Assembly: GCF_006335015.1 (NCBI RefSeq)
Contig: NZ_VDGT01000009.1
Span: 62,001-126,000, forward strand
Origin: Streptomyces sedi
Lineage (GTDB): Bacteria; Actinomycetota; Actinomycetes; Streptomycetales; Streptomycetaceae
Reading direction: 5' to 3'
Length of the DNA: 64,000 nt
A program made the position numbers and the translations under genes. Below the pieces are notes generated by a model that saw only the letters and a list, made by a program, of their open reading frames with translations, was not told where the DNA came from and ran no database searches. Numbering within the stretch: the stretch's first letter is position 1; every line of letters starts with the position of its first letter. Of the stretch, positions 42,731 to 55,157 are shown piece by piece.

Positions 42731-43173
42731 CATCCGCCGCCCGGTGGACGGCCCGACCCCGGGGGGGGGAACGGCACCTCTCGCGTCAACGCGGCCCCCG
42801 AAATTCCCCTCTCCACGGTGAGGGGGCATCGATTCGTTGACGGCGTTGACAAGGATGCGCGGACCGGAGTAACTGTGCCCTCCCCCACACGCCCCGGGGG
42901 CGCGCGGCGAACGCGCCGGTGAAGCCCACGCACGCCCGGCGCCACCTGTGGGCACGCGACGCCCCACGCGCGCGCGGGCGGACACCGAACGGCGCCGCTC
43001 CGCGTCCGGGCGACTACCCCGTGAGAGTGAACGTCCGGCGACAAGCCTGCCCCGGGCAGGCGTACGAGGACGGCCTGTTGGGCACGGTCACGCCGTAGGC
43101 TGGGGCCGCACGGAAACTTATGGCAGCCGGGGTGGGACTACACCGTTCCGTCCCGGCCGGGAGGAGGCGCTGG
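42731..43173 (+). other. 443-bp intergenic region with hairpins and a candidate promoter
   Basis: No gene seen. CCCCTC (42806-42811) pairs with GAGGGG (42820-42825), a likely terminator for the ABC operon. TTGACA at 42846-42851, 18 bases, then TAACTG at 42870-42875 resembles a vegetative promoter pointing rightward, which would give the PAC2 gene a leader of roughly 290 bases. GCCTGCCCCGGGCAGGC at 43045-43061 is a further near-perfect hairpin within that leader. Confidence 0.5.
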
Positions 43174-44151
43174 GTGATCGAGCTCGACGGAGTTCCCGAG
43201 CTGGTTGACCCGGTCATGGTGGCCGCGTTCGAAGGCTGGAACGATGCTGGTGACGCCGCCTCCGCAGCGGTGGCGCATCTGGAACGTGAGTGGAAGGGCG
43301 AGGTGTTCGCGGCGCTCGACGCCGAGGACTACTACGACTTCCAGGTCAACCGCCCGCACATCTGGCTGGACGGCGGCGTGCGACGCATCACCTGGCCCAC
43401 GACCAGGCTCTCCGTGGTACGGATCGGCTCGGAGGACGGCCCGGTCAGGCGCCGGGACCTGGTCCTGGTCCGGGGGATCGAGCCCAGTATGCGCTGGCGC
43501 TCGTTCTGCAACGAGATCCTGGGCTTCGCCCACGAGTTGGGCGTGGAGATGGTCGTGGTGCTCGGCGCGCTGCTCGGCGACACCCCGCACACCCGCCCCG
43601 TCCCGGTCACCAGCGTGACCTCGGACGAGGACCTGGCCCGCACCCTGGACCTGGAGGAGTCCCGCTACGAGGGCCCCACCGGCATCGTCGGCATCCTCCA
43701 GGAGGCGTGCGGCCACGCCGGCGTCCCCGCCGTGACGCTGTGGGCCGCCGTGCCGCACTACGTGGCGCAACCTCCCAACCCCAAGGCGTCGTTGGCCCTG
43801 CTCCACGCGCTGGAGGACCTGCTCAACCTGGGCATCCCCATGGGCGACCTCGCCGAGGACGCCCGCGCCTGGCAGATCGGGGTCGACCAACTCGCCGCCG
43901 AGGACAGCGAGGTGGCCGAGTACGTGAAGTCCCTTGAGGAGGCCAGGGACACGGCCGAGCTGCCGGAGGCCACCGGCGAGGCCATCGCCAAGGAGTTCGA
44001 ACGCTATCTGCGCCGCAGGGACGGCCAGCCGCCGACCGGCGAGCAGGGCTCCTACCTGCGCGACCCCGGCACCCACCGCCCCCGCAGGCCCCGCCCCCAG
44101 GAGGGCGAGGGCGGCCAGCCCGAAGCGGGCGGCAAGGAGCCCGAGGAGTAG
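43174..44151 (+). CDS. parJ: PAC2-family protein, ParJ-like
   Basis: 325 residues. The PAC2 domain is recognisable from IELDGVPELVDPVMVAAFEGWNDAGDAASAAVAHL through VVLGALLGDTPHTRPVPVTSVTSD and GIVGILQEACGHAGVPAVTLWAAVPHYV. PAC2 proteins are related to proteasome-assembly chaperones. In S. coelicolor the orthologue beside glpD and mshC is ParJ, which binds ParA and limits its polymerisation during sporulation septation; I infer orthology from family and position. GTG 43174 is chosen for its GGGAGGAGG ribosome site. The C-terminal 45 residues are a disordered arginine/proline/glutamate tail. Ends at a strong terminator. Confidence 0.82.
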   Translation: MIELDGVPELVDPVMVAAFEGWNDAGDAASAAVAHLEREWKGEVFAALDAEDYYDFQVNRPHIWLDGGVRRITWPTTRLSVVRIGSEDGPVRRRDLVLVRGIEPSMRWRSFCNEILGFAHELGVEMVVVLGALLGDTPHTRPVPVTSVTSDEDLARTLDLEESRYEGPTGIVGILQEACGHAGVPAVTLWAAVPHYVAQPPNPKASLALLHALEDLLNLGIPMGDLAEDARAWQIGVDQLAAEDSEVAEYVKSLEEARDTAELPEATGEAIAKEFERYLRRRDGQPPTGEQGSYLRDPGTHRPRRPRPQEGEGGQPEAGGKEPEE

Positions 44152-44180: not shown

Positions 44181-44220
44181 GCGCGTCAACTCCCTTTTCG
44201 AGCGGCGGGAGTTGGCGCGC
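44181..44220 (+). terminator. Rho-independent-like terminator after parJ
   Basis: GCGCGTCAACTCCC (44181-44194) pairs with GGGAGTTGGCGCGC (44207-44220), 14 bp with one G-T pair, followed by GTTCCTCTTTT, an unusual U-rich tail for this genome. Confidence 0.85.
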
Positions 44221-44257
44221 GTTCCTCTTTTACCCCGTCGCACGTTCCCGTCGTCCG

Positions 44258-44263
44258 TATACT
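44258..44263 (+). promoter_or_regulatory. TATACT -10 element, probably for a leaderless transcript
   Basis: TATACT, a near-consensus -10 hexamer, ends eight bases before the GTG at 44272. A start of transcription at the usual distance would fall on or next to that GTG, and no Shine-Dalgarno is present. It lies just after the parJ terminator. Confidence 0.6.
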
Positions 44264-44271
44264 GCGTCTCC

Positions 44272-45573
44272 GTGAGCGGAACGCGGTCCGACGACATCTC
44301 GCCTCCCTCACCCCCGGCGGGCGGTGACAGGCTTCCGCACGTCTACCGAGTCACCAAGTACGACCCCGCCGACCGTGACGAGCGGGGCCGCTACACGGGT
44401 GACGCGTCCGCCGAGAGCGACCGGGGACCGGTCGAAGCCGCGTATCTGGAGACCGTCGCCGCCTTCGCCGAGGAGTCAGGCGTGGACCACCTGGCCGTGC
44501 GGGAGCCGGAGTTCGGGAGCTTCCCCGGCGCGGGACCGCTGGCCGGTGTTCTGCCCGGCGGTCTCGCGGCCTTCCACGACGGGGCAACGGTGTCGGTCCG
44601 GACCGGCGTGGCCCTCGTCCGGGCCATGCTCCGCGAGGCCGGGCTGTGGTGCCGTCTTGAGGTGCCGGGAGCGTTCGCCGCGCACGTCGGCTGGGACCAG
44701 TACCTCTATCTCGGCAGTCGCCACCCCTGCACCTCCGCGCTGGCCCGCGCCCGGTCCCTCGGGCTGTTCCCGGAACGGCTGGACGCCTCCCCCTACGACT
44801 TCGTCCCGGACGACCCGGACCAGGTGTCACGTCCCGCGGACGACGACTTCTGGGCGCGTCTGCGCTGGCTGGTGGCCGTTCACGGCACCACGCTGCTGGA
44901 GGAGACCCCCGCCGCCAACACCACCCGGTGGCACCGGCTGACCCGCGACACCGTCGACGCGGTGCGCGCCGGCCTGGCCCCGCGCGCCCGGCTGGCGGTC
45001 TGGACCGACCCGCTCACCGACGTCGAGACGGCCCTGGCCACGCTCTCCGACGACGGCGCGGTGGAGATCCTCCGGGAGGACGACGACGGCCGGATCACCG
45101 GCACCGTCCTCGACGATCCCCGGCCCGAGACGGTGGCCACCCGACTCGCCGGCGCACGGGCCGCGACGGTCCTCCCGCTGGCCCTCGACGGGCGCCGGCC
45201 GCTGTGCACCGCGGTGCTGCCCGACGGCGACGGCGTCCTCCGCGCACGCTGGCAGACGGACGCGACACCGGGCGACCGCGACTGGGCCTTCCTGCGGACC
45301 CTGCGGCGCGGCCAGAGCGTCACCGGCACGGTGACGGACATCGCCAACTTCGGCGTCACGTTCGTGGACATCGGCGGCTTCACCGCGATGATCAACCTTC
45401 CGGAGCTCTCCCGGCGCCCGTTCGCGCACCCGTCCGACGTCGTCCGCGTCGGTCAGGAGATCACGGCGAGGATCCTCGACGTCGACATGGTGCGGGAGCG
45501 GGTCTCGCTGTCGCTCCGACCGCCGCGGGAGGCCCCCGGCCGGGGAGGGCGGAGCACGTCGGGCAGCCGGTGA
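44272..45573 (+). CDS. S1 RNA-binding-domain protein, function unknown
   Basis: 433 residues. The C-terminal ~75 residues are a clear S1/OB RNA-binding domain: GQSVTGTVTDIANFGVTFVDIGGFTAMINLPELS ... VRVGQEITARILDVDMVRERVSLSLRPP. The first ~330 residues have no family I recognise; they include HVYRVTKYDPADRDERGRYTGD at the N-terminus and VDHLAVREPEF, VLPGGLAAFHDGATVSV and a YLYLGSRHPC segment. It may act in translation or RNA handling. Apparently leaderless. It sits between parJ and mshC, which I recall as adjacent in S. coelicolor, so this may be an insertion. It converges with mshC. Confidence 0.75.
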   Translation: MSGTRSDDISPPSPPAGGDRLPHVYRVTKYDPADRDERGRYTGDASAESDRGPVEAAYLETVAAFAEESGVDHLAVREPEFGSFPGAGPLAGVLPGGLAAFHDGATVSVRTGVALVRAMLREAGLWCRLEVPGAFAAHVGWDQYLYLGSRHPCTSALARARSLGLFPERLDASPYDFVPDDPDQVSRPADDDFWARLRWLVAVHGTTLLEETPAANTTRWHRLTRDTVDAVRAGLAPRARLAVWTDPLTDVETALATLSDDGAVEILREDDDGRITGTVLDDPRPETVATRLAGARAATVLPLALDGRRPLCTAVLPDGDGVLRARWQTDATPGDRDWAFLRTLRRGQSVTGTVTDIANFGVTFVDIGGFTAMINLPELSRRPFAHPSDVVRVGQEITARILDVDMVRERVSLSLRPPREAPGRGGRSTSGSR

Positions 45574-45752: not shown

Positions 45753-46982
45753 CTACAGCGCGACGCCCAGCAGCGCGTCCACCGCGCGGCTGACGACGCC
45801 GGGGGCGCCCGGGGCGTCGCCGCCCTCGCGTTCCTGGGTCTCGGCCCAGCGGTCCACGGCGCGCAGCGCCGCGGGGGCGTTCAGGTCCTCGGCCAACGCG
45901 GCGCGGACCTCGGCGACGAGGGCGTCCGGCGACGGCCCCTCGGGGCGCGAGACGGCGTGCCGCCAGCGGGCCAGTCTGGCCTCGGCCTCCGCGAGGACGG
46001 CGTCGGTCCACTCCCAGTCGGCGCGGTAGTGGTGGGCCAGCAGCGCCAGCCGGATCGCCGCCGGGTCGCGGCCCTCCGCGCGCAGCTGGGAGACCAGCAC
46101 CAGGTTGCCCTTGGACTTGGACATCTTCTCGCCCTGGTAGCCGACCATCCCCGCGTGCACATAGCTCTGCGCGTAAGGGTGTTCGCCGGTGAGCACGCGG
46201 GCGTGCGAGGCGCCCATCTCGTGGTGCGGGAAGGCCAGGTCGGAGCCGCCGCCCTGGACGTCGAAGCCCATCCCGAGGTGGTCCAGCGCGATGGCCACAC
46301 ACTCCACGTGCCAGCCGGGCCGGCCCCGGCCGAGGCTGGCACCCTCCCAGGAGGGCTCGCCCTCGCGGGCGGCCCGCCACAGCAGCGGGTCCAGCGGGTT
46401 CTTCTTGCCCGCCCGCTCCGGATCGCCGCCGCGCTCGGCGGACAGCCGCCGCATCTCGTCGGCGTCCAGCCCCGCGACCGAGCCGAAGCGGTCGTCGGAC
46501 GCCACGGAGAAGTAGACGTCGCCGTCCACGTCGTAGGCCGCGCCGCTCTCCCGCAGCCGCTCGATGAGCGGAACGATCCGGGGTATGGCCTCGACCGCGC
46601 CCACATAGTGCTCGGGCGGCAGCATCCGCAGCGCGGTCATGTCCTCGCGGAAGAGCGCGGTCTCCCGTTCCGCCAGCGCGGCCCACGGCTCGCCGGTCGC
46701 CTCGGCCCGCTCCAGCAGCGGGTCGTCGATGTCGGTGACGTTCTGCACGTAGTGGACCTGACGCCCGGAGTCGAGCCAGATCCGCTGCACGAGGTCGAAC
46801 GCGGTGTAGGTGGCCGCGTGACCCATGTGAGTCGCGTCGTAGGGGGTGATGCCGCAGACGTAGAGCCGGGCGACGGGGCCGGGCGACAGCGTGACGGAAC
46901 GCAGGCGCGCGGTGTCGTGGATCGTCAGATCCGGGCTCTGACCGGGCAGAACGGGGACCTTGGAAGCAGGCCAGGCATACAT
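45753..46982 (-). CDS. mshC: Cysteine:1D-myo-inosityl 2-amino-2-deoxy-D-glucopyranoside ligase (mycothiol synthesis)
   Basis: 409 residues, a shortened class I cysteinyl-tRNA-synthetase fold. [19 protein letters not shown] contains the zinc cysteine and HIGH-equivalent [15 protein letters not shown] and FPHHEMG supply other zinc/active-site residues; KMSKSKGN is the KMSKS loop. The anticodon-binding domain of true CysRS is missing, and the family sequence is that of MshC, which joins cysteine to GlcN-Ins using ATP in mycothiol synthesis. ATG 46982. Followed upstream by the kinase-like/DUF3090/phosphatase trio on the same strand, an arrangement also present in mycobacteria. Confidence 0.96.
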
Positions 46983-47087: not shown

Positions 47088-47936
47088 TCAGACCAGCGGC
47101 CAGGGGATCGCCGGCCACTCACCGCCCGGCAACGGGTGCGTGCCGGACTCCCGCAGCGCGTCGACGCGTTCCCGCAGCGCCGCGCACTCGGCGGCGGTCA
47201 GCAGCCCGGCCAGCCGTTCGGCCAGTTCCCGCCCCTCGGCCAGCTCGGCCCGCAGCCCCTCCAGCGCGGCACGGATCTCCTCCGGCAGCGGCTCGCCGGC
47301 CCAACCCCACAGCAGAGTGCGCAACTTGTTCTCGGTGTGGAAGCTCACCCCGTGGTCGATCGCCTGGATCCGGCCGTCGGGGAGGGGCAGCAGATGGCCG
47401 CCCTTGCGATCCGCGTTGTTGATCACCGCGTCCAACGTCGCCAGCCTGCGCAGCGCCTCGTGGTCGGCGTGGACCAGCAGCGCCGTCCGGCCCTCGGCGA
47501 CCTCGGCGAGGCCGACGGCCTTCCAGCCGGGCCCCGGCTCCTCGCCCTCGACCAAGGCCAGCAGCCCCTCGTCCGGCCCCCGGCCGAAGTCGGGCGCGTC
47601 CGGCGGCGGCCCCACCCACAGCTGGACCATCCCCGTGCCGAACGGGCCCTCGCGCAGCACCGTCGGCGGCACCAGATCCCAGCCGAGCGCGCGGCAGACC
47701 TCGTGGGCCGCGACCTCGCGCTCGGCGAGGGTGCCGTCGGGGAAGTCCCACAGCGGACGCTCCCCCGACACCGGCTTGTAGACGCAGTGCAGGGTGCGGC
47801 CGTCCCGTTCCACGGTGGAGTAGAGCACCGCGTTGGAGGCGTCGGCGATCCGTCCGAGCACCGTCAACTCGCCCTCGGCGAGGATCTCCCCCGTGGTCAC
47901 GTCTGGCTGCGCCGGTATCCGTTCTGCCGCGGGCAT
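47088..47936 (-). CDS. SCO1664-family protein with PI3/PI4-kinase or HipA-like catalytic residues
   Basis: 282 residues, uncharacterised family (TIGR03843 type). Kinase-like features: VYKPVSGERPLWDFPDG with a lysine at about 54 in the ATP-binding strand, AEREVAAHEV helix, catalytic loop INNADRKGGHLL (Asp176, Lys178, His181) and metal-binding AIDHGVSFH (Asp194). These parallel the DRxxxN and DxG motifs of PI3/PI4 kinases and HipA. The sequence looks catalytically competent. Substrate unknown; protein or small-molecule phosphorylation are both possible. ATG 47936 lies 40 bases inside the upstream DUF3090 gene, implying translational coupling; a GTG twelve codons later (47900) would nearly abolish the overlap. 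Confidence 0.85.
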   Translation of the reverse strand: MPAAERIPAQPDVTTGEILAEGELTVLGRIADASNAVLYSTVERDGRTLHCVYKPVSGERPLWDFPDGTLAEREVAAHEVCRALGWDLVPPTVLREGPFGTGMVQLWVGPPPDAPDFGRGPDEGLLALVEGEEPGPGWKAVGLAEVAEGRTALLVHADHEALRRLATLDAVINNADRKGGHLLPLPDGRIQAIDHGVSFHTENKLRTLLWGWAGEPLPEEIRAALEGLRAELAEGRELAERLAGLLTAAECAALRERVDALRESGTHPLPGGEWPAIPWPLV

Positions 47937-48490
47937 ACATGTCCCTCCGGGTCGAGCGGCAGGCTGCACAGCGGGCAGGGCGGCCGGCCGGCGTTGACGA
48001 CTTCCAGCGCCCGCTTCGCGAAGGCGCGTGCCATGGTGCCGCTCAGCCGCACCCGCAGCATGGGCGGTCCGTTCTCGTCGTCCCGCAGCAGCCGCTCCTC
48101 GGCCTCCGCGAACTCCTCCTCGGAGTCCGCCTCCACCTCGACCAGCGCCTGCGCCTCGACGATCATGCGCTCGGCCTCGCCGTCCCAGGCCAGGGCCATG
48201 GTGCCGACCCGGAACTCCTCGTCGACCGGCGAGACCAGCGGCGCGGTGTCGGAGATCTCGGAGGGCGCGACCGCCGGGACCGTCGTGTTGCCGCCCGAGC
48301 GGCGCACCACCTCGTCCAGCAGCTCGTCGATGCGCTCGGCCAACGCCTCGACCTGCGCTTTCTCCAACGCGACACTCGTGGTGCGGCCGGCCGCCGACGC
48401 CTGTAGGAAGAACGTGCGGCGGCCAGGCAACCCGACGGTCCCGGCGACAAAGCGTTCGGGAGGGTCGTAGAGGAAGACCTGACGGGACAC
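47897..48490 (-). CDS. DUF3090 family protein
   Basis: 197 residues, conserved actinobacterial family (TIGR03847 type) of unknown function. The N-terminus SRQVFLYDPPERFVAGTVGLPGRRTFFLQA is the family hallmark; the middle contains LEKAQVEALAERIDELLDEV. The C-terminus PPCPLCSLPLDPEGHVCPRQNGYRR holds three cysteines plus a histidine in a zinc-ribbon-like arrangement. It overlaps the kinase-like gene downstream and follows the histidine phosphatase gene by 90 bases. GTG or ATG choice is settled by the SRQVF start at 48490. Confidence 0.88.
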   Translation of the reverse strand: MSRQVFLYDPPERFVAGTVGLPGRRTFFLQASAAGRTTSVALEKAQVEALAERIDELLDEVVRRSGGNTTVPAVAPSEISDTAPLVSPVDEEFRVGTMALAWDGEAERMIVEAQALVEVEADSEEEFAEAEERLLRDDENGPPMLRVRLSGTMARAFAKRALEVVNAGRPPCPLCSLPLDPEGHVCPRQNGYRRSQT

Positions 48491-48580
48491 GTACTGCTCC
48501 GGGGACTCGATTGCGGGGACAGGTGCACCCTACTGCGCCTGACGATCACCGCGCCCGGGGACCGCCAGGTGGAACGCGGA

Positions 48581-49273
48581 CTACGCCCCGCCGCCGACGG
48601 GGGACCTGGTGGACTCGTCCGTGTCCCTGGCCGCGGCCTCCGTGTGCGGCACGAACTCGCCCAGGTCACCGGTGTCGCCGAAGCGCAGCAGCAGCGGCGG
48701 TTCGCCGTAGCGGATCGCGGTCACCGAGGCGGGGTGCGGCAACAGCCGCTGGAACAGGTCGAGATGCATGCCCAGCGCGTCGGCGACCACCGCCTTGATG
48801 TTGTCACCGTGGGTGCAGGCCAGCCAGACCGCCTCCGGCCCGTGCTCCGCGGCGATCCGCGCGTCCCACTCGCGCACGGCCGCCACCACGCGGTGCTGCA
48901 CGTCCCGCAGCGCCTCGCCCTCGGGGAAGACGACGGCGGACGGCTGGGTGCGGACGGTGCGCATCAGCTCCGTCTCGGCGAGGTCCCTCAGCGGCTCGTT
49001 GGTCCAGCGGCCGTAGTCGCACTCGATCAGTCGCTCGTCGGAGTGGACCGCGACATCCGGGCGCGCCTCGTGCAGCGGCGCGACCGTGCGGGCGCAGCGC
49101 AGCAGCGGGCTGTGCACGACCGCGGCCAGCGGCACCCCGGCCAGCCGGCCCGGCAGCGCCGCCGCCTGCTCCTGACCGTAGGCGTCGAGGTCGACACCGG
49201 GGGTGCGGCCGGCGAGCAGCCCCGAGGAGTTGGCGGTGGTCCGGCCGTGCCGGAGAAGCAGCAGCGTGGGCAT
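48581..49273 (-). CDS. Histidine phosphatase superfamily protein (MSMEG_4193 type)
   Basis: 230 residues. LLLRHGRTTANSSGLLAGRTPG holds the catalytic RHG histidine (about residue 9) and phosphate-pocket arginine; RCARTVAP and IECDYGRWTN follow; the acid residue is in FPEGEAL and the second histidine in ACTHGDNIKAVVADALG. Family TIGR03848 is named as a probable phosphomutase or phosphatase and is found with the DUF3090 and kinase-like families in actinobacteria. Here the three lie together on one strand in the order phosphatase, DUF3090, kinase-like, then mshC. Substrate unknown. Confidence 0.9.
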   Translation of the reverse strand: MPTLLLLRHGRTTANSSGLLAGRTPGVDLDAYGQEQAAALPGRLAGVPLAAVVHSPLLRCARTVAPLHEARPDVAVHSDERLIECDYGRWTNEPLRDLAETELMRTVRTQPSAVVFPEGEALRDVQHRVVAAVREWDARIAAEHGPEAVWLACTHGDNIKAVVADALGMHLDLFQRLLPHPASVTAIRYGEPPLLLRFGDTGDLGEFVPHTEAAARDTDESTRSPVGGGA

Positions 49274-50558: not shown

Positions 50559-51545
50559 ATGGATCTCAGGCATCTCGGCCGCACCGGCCTGCGCGTCTCC
50601 CGCCTAGGGCTCGGCACCCTCACCTGGGGCAGCGAGGTCGACGAACGCGGGGCGGCCGGGTTGCTCAAGACGTTCTGGGCGGCCGGCGGCACACTCGTGG
50701 ACACCGCCGACGTCTACGCGGACGGCGAGGCGGAGCGGCTGCTGGGGCGGCTGCTGGACAGCGCGGTGCCGCGCGCGGACCTGGTGATCGCCACCAAGGC
50801 GGGCAGCGTTCCCGACCCGGACCGCAGGTTCGACACCTCGCGCGGGCATCTGCTGGCCGCGCTCGACGCCTCGCTGGCGCGGCTGCGCACCGACCACGTC
50901 GACCTGTGGCAGGTCCACGCCTTCGACCAGGACACCCCGCTGGAGGAGACGCTCCAGGCCGTGGACGTGGCGATCGCCACCGGCCGGGCCCGCTACGCGG
51001 GGGTCTCCAACTTCAGCGGCTGGCAGCTGGCCAAGGCGGCGACCTGGCAGCTCGCGGCCCCCGTCGGGCGGAACCGGCTCTCCAGCACGCAGATGGAGTA
51101 CTCGCTGCTGCAACGCGGCGTGGAGCGCGAGGTGTTGCCGGCCGCGCTGGACCTGGGGCTGGGGCTGCTGCCGTCCTCGCCGCTGGGGCGCGGGGTGCTC
51201 ACCGGCAAGTACCGGGAGGGGGCCAGGCCGGCGGACTCGCGGGGCGCCTCGGACATGCTGTCGGGCTTCGTGGCGCCCTATCTGGAGGAGCCGGCCGGCC
51301 GGATCGTGGACGCGGTCGCCATAGCCGCCGACGGCCTCGCGGTGACCCCGGGGCAGGTGGCGCTGGCCTGGGTGCGGGACCGGCCGGGGGTGGCGTCGCC
51401 GCTGCTGGGGGCGCGCACGGTGCGCCAGTTGGAGGAGGCGTTGTCAGTGGAGGCCCTTAGTCTTCCCGATGAGATCCGCCGGGCGCTGGACGACGTGTCG
51501 GCCCCGGTGCACCACTACCCCGACCAGGACTGGAGTTCGCTGTGA
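50559..51545 (+). CDS. Aldo/keto reductase family protein
   Basis: 328 residues. (beta/alpha)8 AKR: LGLGTLTWGSEVDE, the catalytic Asp-Tyr pair in DTADVYADGEAERLLG, Lys in VIATKAG, and His in DLWQVHAFD; NADPH-binding residues near LGARTVRQLEEAL. NADPH-dependent reduction of carbonyls, substrate unknown. The GTG of the following RecD2-like gene overlaps its stop codon, so the two are co-translated. No clear Shine-Dalgarno; a TACGCT hexamer ends eight bases before the ATG, so it may be leaderless. Confidence 0.92.
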   Translation: MDLRHLGRTGLRVSRLGLGTLTWGSEVDERGAAGLLKTFWAAGGTLVDTADVYADGEAERLLGRLLDSAVPRADLVIATKAGSVPDPDRRFDTSRGHLLAALDASLARLRTDHVDLWQVHAFDQDTPLEETLQAVDVAIATGRARYAGVSNFSGWQLAKAATWQLAAPVGRNRLSSTQMEYSLLQRGVEREVLPAALDLGLGLLPSSPLGRGVLTGKYREGARPADSRGASDMLSGFVAPYLEEPAGRIVDAVAIAADGLAVTPGQVALAWVRDRPGVASPLLGARTVRQLEEALSVEALSLPDEIRRALDDVSAPVHHYPDQDWSSL

Positions 51546-53443
51546 CCTCCGAGCACGCCACCCCCGCCGCCGATCCCGCGGCGGAGCTGCGGGCCGCCGT
51601 GCGGGCGGTGGAGAGCGGTGAGCGCTCCGCCGCCTCCTTCTACCACCGCCCCGAGCCGCCGCGGGCGCCGGCGCCGCCGCCGGAGCGGCGCGGGCCGGCG
51701 GGGCGGGCGGCGGTCCCGGTGCCGGACGGGCTGCCGGGGCTGCTGGCCGCGGGGGGCGCGCCGGAGGCGCTGGCGCCCCGGGTCGCCGCCGCGCTCGGGG
51801 AGGACGCGGAGGCGGAGCTGCGCGCCGACCCGTGGCGGCTGCTGGCGACGCCGGGCGTCGCGCCGGGCCAGGCCGACGAGTTCGCCAGGGCGCTGCTGGG
51901 CGACGAGGCGGGTCCCGCGGACGAGCGGCGCGGGCAGGCGTTGATCGGCTGGCTGCTGGAGCGCGCGGCGCTGGCCGGGCACACGGCGCTGGAGCCGGGC
52001 CGGCTGGCCTCCGGGCTCGCCGAGCACGCGGTGCCCGAGCCGGAGGAGGCCGTCAGGGCGGCCATCGAGGAGGGCGCGGTGCTGGTCTTCCAGGACCGGG
52101 GCGCCCCGGCGGACGCGCCGGCGGCCGAGGGCGAGGAGCCCGAGGTGCGGCTGCTGGTCGGCCTGGAGCGCTACGCGATGGCCGAGGAGGGCCTGGCCGA
52201 CGGGCTCGGGCGGCTGCGCGGCACCTTCGCCGCGCCCGGCGGCGAGGCCGCCGAGGGCTGGGCGGCAGCCGCCGCCGAGGCGCCGAGCCCCTCGGCCGCC
52301 GAGCTGATCCGCGCGGCCGGCGAGGCCGCCGTGGTGACGCACACGGGCGGCGAGGCGTCCAGGGCGGAGCCGCTGGCGCTGGCGCTGGCCGCCGCGCGGC
52401 TGGGGCTGCGGGCCGCCGTGGCGGCCCACCAGCCGGACGGGCGGCGGCGGTTGGCGTCCGCGCTGGGCGGCGAGGCGCCGGTGGCGGCGGTGACGGTGTC
52501 CGGGCTGCTGGACGGCCACGAGGGGCCCGAGCGGGACGGCGAGGGCCGGTTCCCGTGGGACCTGCTGGTGGTGGTCGACGCGGAGCGGCTGGCCGCGGAG
52601 CCCGCGGCGGCGCTGGTGGAGTCGCTGCCGGACGGCGCCAGGCTGGTGCTCAGCGGCGACCCGCTGCTGCTGGGCTCGGCGGGGCCGGGTCAGGTGCTGG
52701 CCGATGTGCTGGCCTCCGGCCGTTTCCCCAAGGTCGTCTCCCGGACCCCGGACCCCGGGCCCGTCGGGGAGCTGGTCTCCGGGATCGGCGTCGGCGAGCT
52801 GGCGAGCGTCGAGGCGCCGGACCGGGAGGTGGTGATCGTCCCGGTCGCCGACCCGGGCGAGGCGGTCCACCGCACGGTCCAGCTGGTGACGGAGTCCATC
52901 CCGCGCGCCTTCGCGCTGGGCGTCGAGCAGGTGCAGGTGATCGTCCCCGGGCACGGCGGCCCCGCCGGCACCCGGGCGCTGAACGCGGCACTCAAGGCTC
53001 GGTTGAACGCGGGCCCCGGCGCGTTCGGCGGCTTCGACCCGGGCGACCGGGCGGCCCACTCCCCCGCCCCCGGCCAGCTGCGGCTGGTGCGGGTGGTGGA
53101 GGCCGACGAGCGCGGGCTGTGGGTCGAGGACGAGGACGGCAGGTTCGTGGTGCCCAGGGAGCGGGTGGCCGAGACGCTGCGCCACGGCTGGGCGGTCACG
53201 GCGCACCAGGCGGCCGGCGCGCGTTGGCCCGCCGTCGTCGCCGTGCTGCCGGGGGACGCGGCGGGCGCGCTGGACCGCCGCTGGGTGTACACGGCGTTCG
53301 GCCGCGCCGCGCGCCATCTCTCCGTGGTGCAGGGATGCGGGCCGGCGTTGGAGCGCGCGGTCGCCGCTCCCCCGGCGGGCGAGCGCGAGACGCGGCTGCG
53401 CGCGCTGGTGCGCGAGCAGCCGCAGGCGCCGCCGGCGGGCTGA
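51542..53443 (+). CDS. RecD2-like protein with helix-hairpin-helix region and degenerate helicase motifs
   Basis: 633 residues. Residues about 60-120 resemble the RecD2 helix-hairpin-helix (DPWRLLATPGVAPGQADEFARALLG). The ATPase part keeps the outline of SF1B RecD but not its catalytic residues: motif I is replaced by VVTHTGGEASRAE (about 264-276, no GKT), motif II by VVVDAER (no DE). Motif III survives as LSGDPLLLGSAGPGQVLADVLAS (370-392). Motif V is altered to TAHQAAGARWPAVVAVLP and motif VI to YTAFGRAARHLSV. So it probably cannot hydrolyse ATP and may be a structural or DNA-binding protein. Very alanine/glycine-rich. Translation is coupled to the upstream reductase. Confidence 0.78.
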   Translation: MTSEHATPAADPAAELRAAVRAVESGERSAASFYHRPEPPRAPAPPPERRGPAGRAAVPVPDGLPGLLAAGGAPEALAPRVAAALGEDAEAELRADPWRLLATPGVAPGQADEFARALLGDEAGPADERRGQALIGWLLERAALAGHTALEPGRLASGLAEHAVPEPEEAVRAAIEEGAVLVFQDRGAPADAPAAEGEEPEVRLLVGLERYAMAEEGLADGLGRLRGTFAAPGGEAAEGWAAAAAEAPSPSAAELIRAAGEAAVVTHTGGEASRAEPLALALAAARLGLRAAVAAHQPDGRRRLASALGGEAPVAAVTVSGLLDGHEGPERDGEGRFPWDLLVVVDAERLAAEPAAALVESLPDGARLVLSGDPLLLGSAGPGQVLADVLASGRFPKVVSRTPDPGPVGELVSGIGVGELASVEAPDREVVIVPVADPGEAVHRTVQLVTESIPRAFALGVEQVQVIVPGHGGPAGTRALNAALKARLNAGPGAFGGFDPGDRAAHSPAPGQLRLVRVVEADERGLWVEDEDGRFVVPRERVAETLRHGWAVTAHQAAGARWPAVVAVLPGDAAGALDRRWVYTAFGRAARHLSVVQGCGPALERAVAAPPAGERETRLRALVREQPQAPPAG

Positions 53444-54482: not shown

Positions 54483-55157
54483 TCAGCCCTGCTGGGCCGT
54501 CCGCGTCCTGCGGTAGAGCAGGGTGCCGCCGAGCACCAGGCCCGCGCCGACCGGCACGGCGGCCATCAGCGCGAAGTTGCCGCCGGTCGCGGCGAGTTGG
54601 GTCTCGACCGGGGTGTCCTCCTCGACCGGGGTGGTCTCGGAGACCAGCTCCGGGGACGGGCCTTCCGGCTCGGACTCCGGCTCCGGCTCCTCAGCCGGGG
54701 TCTTCGGCTCCTCGGGCTCCTGCTCCGGGTGGGGCGCCCGCTCCTGCGGGGCCGCCCCGTTGACGCAGTCGTTGCCGGAGGCCGGGTTCCCGATGCCGAC
54801 CACGTCGACGCTGTTGCCGCAGGCGTTGACCGGCACCTCGATGGGCGCCTGGATGTTGTTGCCCGAGATCACGCCCGGCGAGTTGCTGGCGCCGCCGCTG
54901 GCGTGCGCGCCGCCGCCCTCGTTGACGCAGGTGTTGCCGAACGCCGGGTTGAGAAGCCCGACGACGTTGATCGTGTTCCCGCAGACGTTGACCGGCACGT
55001 GGACCGGGGCCTGCACGGAGTTCCCGGAGACGACCCCCGGTGAGTTGGCCGCGCCGCCCTCCGCTTCGGAGTCGGCGAACGCGATACCGCCGGTCGCTGC
55101 CAGCACGCCGCCGGCGGCGAAGACGGTGAGCAGGCCGTTTCGCGTGACCTGTCGCAT
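54483..55157 (-). CDS. chpC: Long chaplin with two chaplin domains and a sortase signal (ChpC-like)
   Basis: 224 residues. Signal peptide (to about residue 28, ...GGIAFADS), then two chaplin domains: SPGVVSGNSVQAPVHVPVNVCGNTINVVGLLNPAFGN and SPGVISGNNIQAPIEVPVNACGNSVDVVGIGNPASGN, each with the paired cysteines. A proline/glutamate-rich wall-spanning stretch follows, then LAATG, a hydrophobic span and RRTRT: a sortase-E-type anchor. It should be wall-attached and help form the hydrophobic amyloid layer on aerial hyphae. Lies next to the short chaplin, as chpC-chpH do in S. coelicolor. Confidence 0.95.
   Translation of the reverse strand: MRQVTRNGLLTVFAAGGVLAATGGIAFADSEAEGGAANSPGVVSGNSVQAPVHVPVNVCGNTINVVGLLNPAFGNTCVNEGGGAHASGGASNSPGVISGNNIQAPIEVPVNACGNSVDVVGIGNPASGNDCVNGAAPQERAPHPEQEPEEPKTPAEEPEPESEPEGPSPELVSETTPVEEDTPVETQLAATGGNFALMAAVPVGAGLVLGGTLLYRRTRTAQQG

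Follow-up and report, generated by a model that had tools for sequence, protein, structure and literature searches.

The closest described relatives of the system treated here are three protein families, TIGR03843 (SCO1664 family), TIGR03847 (DUF3090) and TIGR03848 (MSMEG_4193 family), which are names without a known function and are said to occur in Chloroflexota. We examined the copy of this trio in a stretch of 64,000 nucleotides from Streptomyces sedi (contig NZ_VDGT01000009.1; hereafter the window). The TIGR03848 protein, a histidine phosphatase, will be called P, the DUF3090 protein D and the kinase-like TIGR03843 protein K. A link between an actinobacterial signature protein, SCO1664, and the mycothiol ligase gene mshC has been in print since 2013, and passages of PMC4255298 describe the two as invariably closely linked. 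To the three families and this link, both already published, we add a placement of the predicted folds, the evidence of residues and distribution, independence from mshC, an apparent movement of P and K as a pair, and changes in D where K is gone. The reading we favour, and to which we give an even chance, is that the trio constitutes a reversible-phosphorylation switch on one acceptor, with D as the partner of K.

How does the window compare with the catalogued families? Its operon runs leftward in the order P, D, K and then mshC, on the minus strand, as the initial annotation had it, and the open reading frames (ORFs) of P, D and K are intact. All three proteins lie above the NCBIfam cut-offs, in the order and neighbourhood familiar from these families: K scores 342.8 bits against 172.4, D 252.4 against 117.25 and P 275.4 against 203.85. 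MshC itself scores 656.3 bits against the 485.1 of TIGR03447. Pfam places D in DUF3090 (PF11290; E 5.9e-67, 225.2 bits, cut-off 27) and P in branch 1 of the histidine phosphatase superfamily (PF00300; E 3.9e-41), with a complete set of catalytic residues. Ninety bases separate P from D and 105 separate K from mshC, while K and D overlap by 40 bases if K starts at the ATG (table 1) and by 73 if it starts at the upstream GTG. Both the 40-base overlap and the residues Lys54, Asp176 and Asp194 cited in the initial annotation are correct for the ATG start; counted from the GTG, as below, these residues become K65, D187 and D205. Among the best 80 relatives of the locus that were listed, 74 carry ‘Streptomyces’ in their titles. 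We conclude that the window holds a typical copy of a catalogued trio without an explained function.

Is K a kinase? Throughout 21 diverse K proteins the residues Y64-K65-P66, E85, D180, N184-N185, D187-R188-K189, H192, D205, G207, L216-R217-T218 and W221 are invariant. When 60 K proteins are aligned, K65 and E85 are present in all 60, and D187, H192, D205, R217, T218 and W221 in all 59 rows having the column, one row being cut; N184 is replaced by D in six rows. Gaps in the residue alignments come from loci of the L085–L087 type, which are cut by contig ends. The Pfam domain PI3_PI4_kinase (PF00454) matches 20 of 21 K proteins at E ≤ 0.1 (set A1, window included; best 3.3e-7), HipA_2 matches five of the 21 and Fam20C one, weakly (E 0.035). 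A profile search of the PDB returned FAM20A as the best entry (E 0.0023) and type II beta phosphatidylinositol 4-kinase (PI4-kinase) at E 0.037, and the profile alignment with the latter spans the catalytic loop.

The structure model of K (predicted local distance difference test, pLDDT, 80.8; predicted template modelling score, pTM, 0.81) points the same way. Its best match is the type II beta PI4-kinase, at Z 13.1 over 218 residues with a root-mean-square deviation of 4.6, and the eight top rows are all type II PI4-kinases (Z 12.3–13.1). The initial annotation had made its kinase depend on an ATP pocket, and some of these PI4-kinase structures were solved with ADP or ATP in place. Below them come FAM20 (Z 10.5–12.0), CtkA (9.2–9.8), HipT and other bacterial kinases (8.0–8.8) and HipA (6.7–7.7). 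The model alignments (A2 and A3), made of the window and related loci (55 and 54 of the best 80), are shallow. In its predicted fold and residues K combines the kinase fold with the Lys, DRxxx and DxG elements by which the PI3/PI4-kinase superfamily is recognized. Predicted fold, invariant residues and Pfam matches together support the view that K is a kinase.

What K phosphorylates is not readable from its fold, because relatives with this fold phosphorylate lipids, sugars or proteins. Each group of relatives resembles K in part. The type II PI4-kinases are its best structural match and have an alignable catalytic loop; on the other hand, that loop reads DRGNDN in them and DRKxGH in K, with a histidine of K where they have asparagine, and K is acidic (median isoelectric point, pI, 4.88 in 78 proteins). 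The FAM20 secretory kinases come close in structure and supply the top PDB sequence match, but the Fam20C domain is found in a single K protein, and K sits within a bacterial operon. HipA, HipT and CtkA share the kinase fold, whereas K is paired with a phosphatase and a DUF3090 protein and occurs class-wide. A toxin–antitoxin system of the HipA type was rejected because of this class-wide distribution and of the neighbourhood in the window, where the direct neighbours of K are DUF3090 and mshC, with nothing resembling HipB or HipS.

If K adds a phosphate, could P remove it? The residues R8, H9, R59, E84 and H155 of P are present in all 60 aligned proteins, and the RHG and THGDN motifs that the initial annotation took to be intact are both there in the window. 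The third residue of the RH(G/A) motif is G in 37 proteins, including the window (G10), and A in 23; the RHA form known from mycobacteria is thus common. The closest solved sequence is that of phosphoserine phosphatase 1 (E 1.1e-11). From the locus order Rv2133c–Rv2135c we take Rv2135c of Mycobacterium tuberculosis to be the orthologue of P; Rv2135c carries RHA and the window protein RHG. Passages of PMC3866925 describe Rv2135c as an acid phosphatase, tetrameric and without mutase activity, that has some activity on fructose-6-phosphate, phosphoenolpyruvate and glycerol-1-phosphate and acts weakly on small phosphates, with a Km of about 8–14 mM. This weak action favours another natural substrate.

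The cysteines of the C-terminal C-x2-C...C that the initial annotation had seen in D are real, but the motif proper is C-x2-C-x8-H-x-C, which takes in H184; it is present in every row having these columns (70 rows) and is already noted in passages of PMC9425974. The model of D (pLDDT 86.2, pTM 0.78) has PUR-alpha proteins in its top five rows (Z 9.2–9.6 over 109–114 residues; 9.6 to human PURA), above the Z of 7–8 typical for models without a match, and Whirly proteins follow at 5.0–5.4. Foldseek returned nothing for D at E ≤ 0.001, its best match having E 0.1; when 28 D members were compared with Pfam, no PUR family came up, and these members are strongly acidic (pI 4.2–5.2). The PUR likeness of the model is suggestive. 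Judging by its name, we take Rv2134c to be the DUF3090 protein of M. tuberculosis. In passages of PMC11329110, the corresponding gene of bacille Calmette–Guérin (−1.42, p < 0.001) is among those whose mutants respond differently to sub-inhibitory rifampicin, and part of PMC10433963 lists MSMEG_4192 in a ClpC1 interactome.

If the three proteins work together, are their genes kept together? Three sets were examined: 129 genomes spread over the phylum, 148 from the class and 111 from the family of genome G038. In the phylum set K is found in 60 of 129 genomes (57 over the cut-off), and exactly these 60 also have D (55 over the cut-off). P-family matches occur in 121 genomes (50 over the cut-off) because the histidine phosphatase superfamily is broad. 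Within the class, K and D are both present in 138 of 148 genomes and both missing in seven; two genomes have K only (G135 and G140) and one has D only (G198). In the G038 family, D is present in 103 of 111 genomes. We compared 59 neighbourhoods, those of 58 loci plus the window; all but one show the order P-D-K on one strand, 55 of them by script and three more (L039, L075 and L080) from search coordinates. The sole exception is L057, a second copy in genome G008, which has no D. The co-occurrence of the three families, on which the initial annotation had staked its case, thus held with a few exceptions. Since Fisher tests of co-occurrence ignore shared ancestry, our argument leans on the exceptions.

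Besides the trio, no neighbour is common to most of the 59 neighbourhoods. The widest other clusters occur in 17, 12 and 12 of them. The largest is an unannotated cluster whose representative stands where the window has an ABC-transporter ATPase ORF; among the families annotated through 20 cluster representatives, the more frequent are acetyl-CoA-synthetase-like (12 of 59), luciferase-like (12, from one annotated representative) and fumarase-type lyase (seven).

What do the exceptions tell us? In genus g178, whose genomes measure 2.2–2.9 Mb and which is taken as Corynebacterium-like because a control genome of C. glutamicum behaves like its one K-bearing member, five of six genomes have neither K nor D nor a P match at E ≤ 1e-40. 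The sixth, G358, has P and K side by side and no D; the control likewise has K and P over the cut-off and no D match. The six genomes thus keep or lose P and K together. All four genomes of family f75 are without K, D and a P match at E ≤ 1e-40. Of the ten f59 family genomes that carry K, seven have their only D at a distant site, and in these seven P is still found within 1 kb of K. The f59 D gene (L174–L182, e.g. L180:7673-9460) adjoins a member of one gene cluster in all nine D loci read, and the member scanned is a ferrochelatase (PF00762).

The gene trees add to this picture. They cover the 60 loci whose K and P both fell into the clusters; L080, L173 and L186, for which this was true of one protein only, were left out. 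L057 and L183 (the locus of G358) form one group in the K tree (support 98/92), beside family f26 (94/89), and one group in the P tree (94/83). In the P tree a 100/99 branch sets nine rows (L057, L183, L063, L035 and five of f26) apart from the remaining 51, among them the usual Actinomycetes copies. The simplest reading of the two trees is that the P-K pair was transferred without D. The matched kinase and phosphatase of the initial annotation do stay together, also as a D-less pair that was apparently transferred in one piece. The portable core of the trio would seem to be P and K.

D may nevertheless belong with K. In the alignment of 70 D proteins, only two genomes depart from G23, R25, E43, K44 and R169, namely G269 (at G23, R25, E43 and K44) and G198 (at E43 and R169), and both have lost K. 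With n = 2, and with the D of G269 generally divergent, these changes are suggestive of a D that serves or partners K; such a partnership is plausible on these residues.

Taken together, P-D-K would form a module for reversible phosphorylation that is complete in itself. As a soluble ATP-dependent kinase of the PI4K-II/FAM20/HipA-like branch, K would phosphorylate an acceptor, and P would take the phosphate off again, the two presumably acting on the same acceptor. D is small and acidic, with a Cys/His metal-site motif and a predicted fold resembling PUR; it would be the partner of K and would perhaps present or recognize the acceptor, the adaptor role proposed in the initial annotation. For the acceptor itself we infer a protein as the likeliest candidate.

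Several observations weigh against this proposal. The window K taken alone falls under the gathering score of PF00454 (13.9 against 27.1 bits). The only Foldseek match of K at E ≤ 0.001 is CtkA (E 2.9e-4, TM-score 0.32), no type II PI4-kinase is among the 50 Foldseek matches listed, and the Z ranking of its folds comes from a second structural aligner. Vertical inheritance inflates the co-occurrence. None of P, D and K is strictly tied to the others: G198 keeps P and D without K, G269 keeps D with neither K nor a P match at E ≤ 1e-40, D adjoining mshC in both genomes, and the Corynebacterium-like pair does without D. The choice of a protein as acceptor draws mainly on certain kinases of related fold (FAM20C, HipA) and on how weakly P acts on small molecules. 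Finally, our searches of open-licence papers yielded no published function for K or D and no assay of either.

Might the acceptor be something other than a protein? K could be a bacterial kinase of phosphoinositides or inositol-headgroup lipids, the phosphate being removed by P or another enzyme. Besides the fold of K, its alignable catalytic loop and its PI3_PI4_kinase matches, the distribution of two synthase genes speaks for this: 58 of the 60 genomes with the trio, and 36 of the 69 without it, have an inositol-phosphate synthase, and a phosphatidylinositol-phosphate-synthase-like match of at least 80 bits is present in all 60 against 32 of 69. These distributions leave room for a lipid role, and both genes are also common without the trio. 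Such a kinase would account for phosphatidylinositol 3-phosphate (PI3P), which was reportedly described in mycobacteria by Morita in 2010, a study cited in PMC5563000. Mycobacterial PI3P is mentioned as well in passages of PMC6176652, written PIP3 there. On the other hand, K is acidic, with no strongly hydrophobic stretch in the one protein scanned; the phosphatidylinositol-phosphate synthase passes its family cut-off in only 12 of 129 genomes; two trio genomes (G006 and G063) have no inositol-phosphate synthase match; and shared ancestry alone could yield the correlation. Plant proteins resembling type II PI4-kinases that act on proteins exist, which also counts against a lipid kinase. We consider it unlikely, and distinctly unlikely in the fuller form in which TIGR03843, as a bacterial relative of the type II PI4-kinases acting on phosphatidylinositol, would be the missing actinobacterial phosphoinositide kinase, with TIGR03848 reversing it and DUF3090 recruiting, and would explain stress-induced mycobacterial PI3P. 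Also unlikely, though a slightly stronger rival in our view, is a small cytosolic phosphometabolite as the target of K and P. The two would then serve salvage, damage repair or regulation, and D would be a binding subunit. The relatives of P with known function, alpha-ribazole and phosphoserine phosphatases, are small-molecule enzymes, and Rv2135c does act on such compounds; its activities are weak and its Km high, however, and no neighbour besides the trio is common to most loci. It is very unlikely that D is a nucleic-acid-binding protein of PUR or Whirly type, with RNA, DNA or something linked to translation as the target of the trio: the top structural matches of D would fit, but the Foldseek result, the lack of a PUR family among the Pfam matches and the acidity of D do not.

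What of mycothiol, to which the initial annotation tentatively tied the trio and which passages of PMC4255298 also suggest? A full-score MshC occurs in 11 of the 129 genomes, all of them trio-bearing (hence 11 of 60). Its gene lies within 1 kb of K in ten of the 11; G008 has mshC on another contig, and the D genes of G198 and G269 still stand beside mshC after the loss of K. Eleven more trio genomes have MshC-like matches of 391–426 bits, on another contig (five) or more than 100 kb away (six). The remaining 38 of 60 have no match above 345 bits, a region where ordinary cysteinyl-tRNA synthetases score; the second MshC match of the window genome, for instance, reaches 264.5 bits. Because a few matches are cut by contig ends (e.g. 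in G123), a handful of the 38 may still hold an MshC-like gene. With a full-score MshC in so few trio genomes, and beside K in ten, the mycothiol link is one of local synteny; in our sample the published linkage of SCO1664 to mshC applies inside the class, save for an exception, but does not extend to genomes outside. We therefore rejected mycothiol as the core job of the trio, and a part in mycothiol biosynthesis or its control is highly improbable. Since the trio is kept in many species without a recognizable mycothiol gene alongside, its job is probably independent of mycothiol.

Two further candidates were set aside. In the window, an F420-type luciferase-like gene lies upstream of P, and cofD is found in 56 of 60 trio genomes (two partial matches counted). 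Dependence on coenzyme F420 was rejected: no cofD match exceeds 30 bits in G008, G070, G010 and G064 (100, 98, 94 and 62% complete), and in 17 genomes cofD passes its cut-off although the trio is missing. A mobile or defence element was rejected as well. K occurs in two of 72,556 plasmid records and one of 50,697 phage records, and both plasmid records look chromosomal: NZ_LR134462.1 (33.5 kb, plasmid 20 of Tsukamurella) has dapA, mshC and metH beside the trio and seems to be a piece of chromosome, while the other record has a length of 11.85 Mb and no annotation there. The phage record, MT835969.1 (positions 2124-2915), is labelled Bacteriophage sp., from human faeces, and holds a relative of K with 46.7% identity over 94% cover; it may be phage or mislabelled host DNA.

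Table 1. Coordinates of the trio, its principal residues and the adjoining mshC gene, in positions of the window.
Feature	Coordinates	Strand	Basis or remark
P, histidine-phosphatase family protein, TIGR03848 (MSMEG_4193 family)	48581..49273	−	NCBIfam, Pfam, residue alignment
D, DUF3090/TIGR03847, predicted PUR-alpha-like two-part alpha+beta fold with C-terminal Cys/His motif	47897..48490	−	
C-x2-C-x8-H-x-C motif of D (C172, C175, H184, C186)	47933..47977	−	Alignment
K, TIGR03843 (SCO1664 family), predicted PI4-kinase/FAM20/HipA-like kinase fold	47088..47969	−	
Start codon of K	GTG at 47969 or ATG at 47936	−	
Codon of K65 of K, putative ATP-binding lysine	47775..47777	−	Role by analogy with kinase fold
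Codon of D187 of K, putative catalytic aspartate in NNADRKxGH	47409..47411	−	Role by analogy
Codon of D205 of K, putative metal-binding aspartate in IDHG (DFG-like)	47355..47357	−	Role by analogy
mshC (mycothiol cysteine ligase), 105 bases downstream of K	45753..46982	−	Not judged part of the system

Other genes of the window deserve mention. On the plus strand, 43120-44151 encodes a PAC2-family protein, by its place of the ParJ/SCO1662 type; ParJ acts on ParA filaments, according to passages of PMC4255298. Between this gene and mshC, 44212-45573 (plus strand) encodes 453 residues with one C-terminal S1 RNA-binding domain and a large N-terminal part with no assigned domain. A relative of RecD2-like helicases, possibly a diverged helicase, is encoded at 51542-53443 (plus strand), with modest matches to HHH_RecD2, AAA_30 and UvrD_C_2 (27.9–34.9 bits). 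The product of 54483-55157 (minus strand) has two ChpA-C (chaplin) stretches (PF03777) and a C-terminal LAATG with a hydrophobic tail, and resembles a cell-wall-anchored long chaplin.

What does the trio mean for the biology of these bacteria? The question shifts from mycothiol to P and K as a pair open to purification and assay: does K leave a phosphate mark, on which acceptor, and is it erased by P? If the acceptor is phosphatidylinositol, there would be phosphoinositide signalling in bacteria, a lipid-phosphate signal of eukaryotic style. If it is a protein, the trio would constitute a regulatory switch that extends over a class of bacteria and is separate from the Pkn kinases already known.

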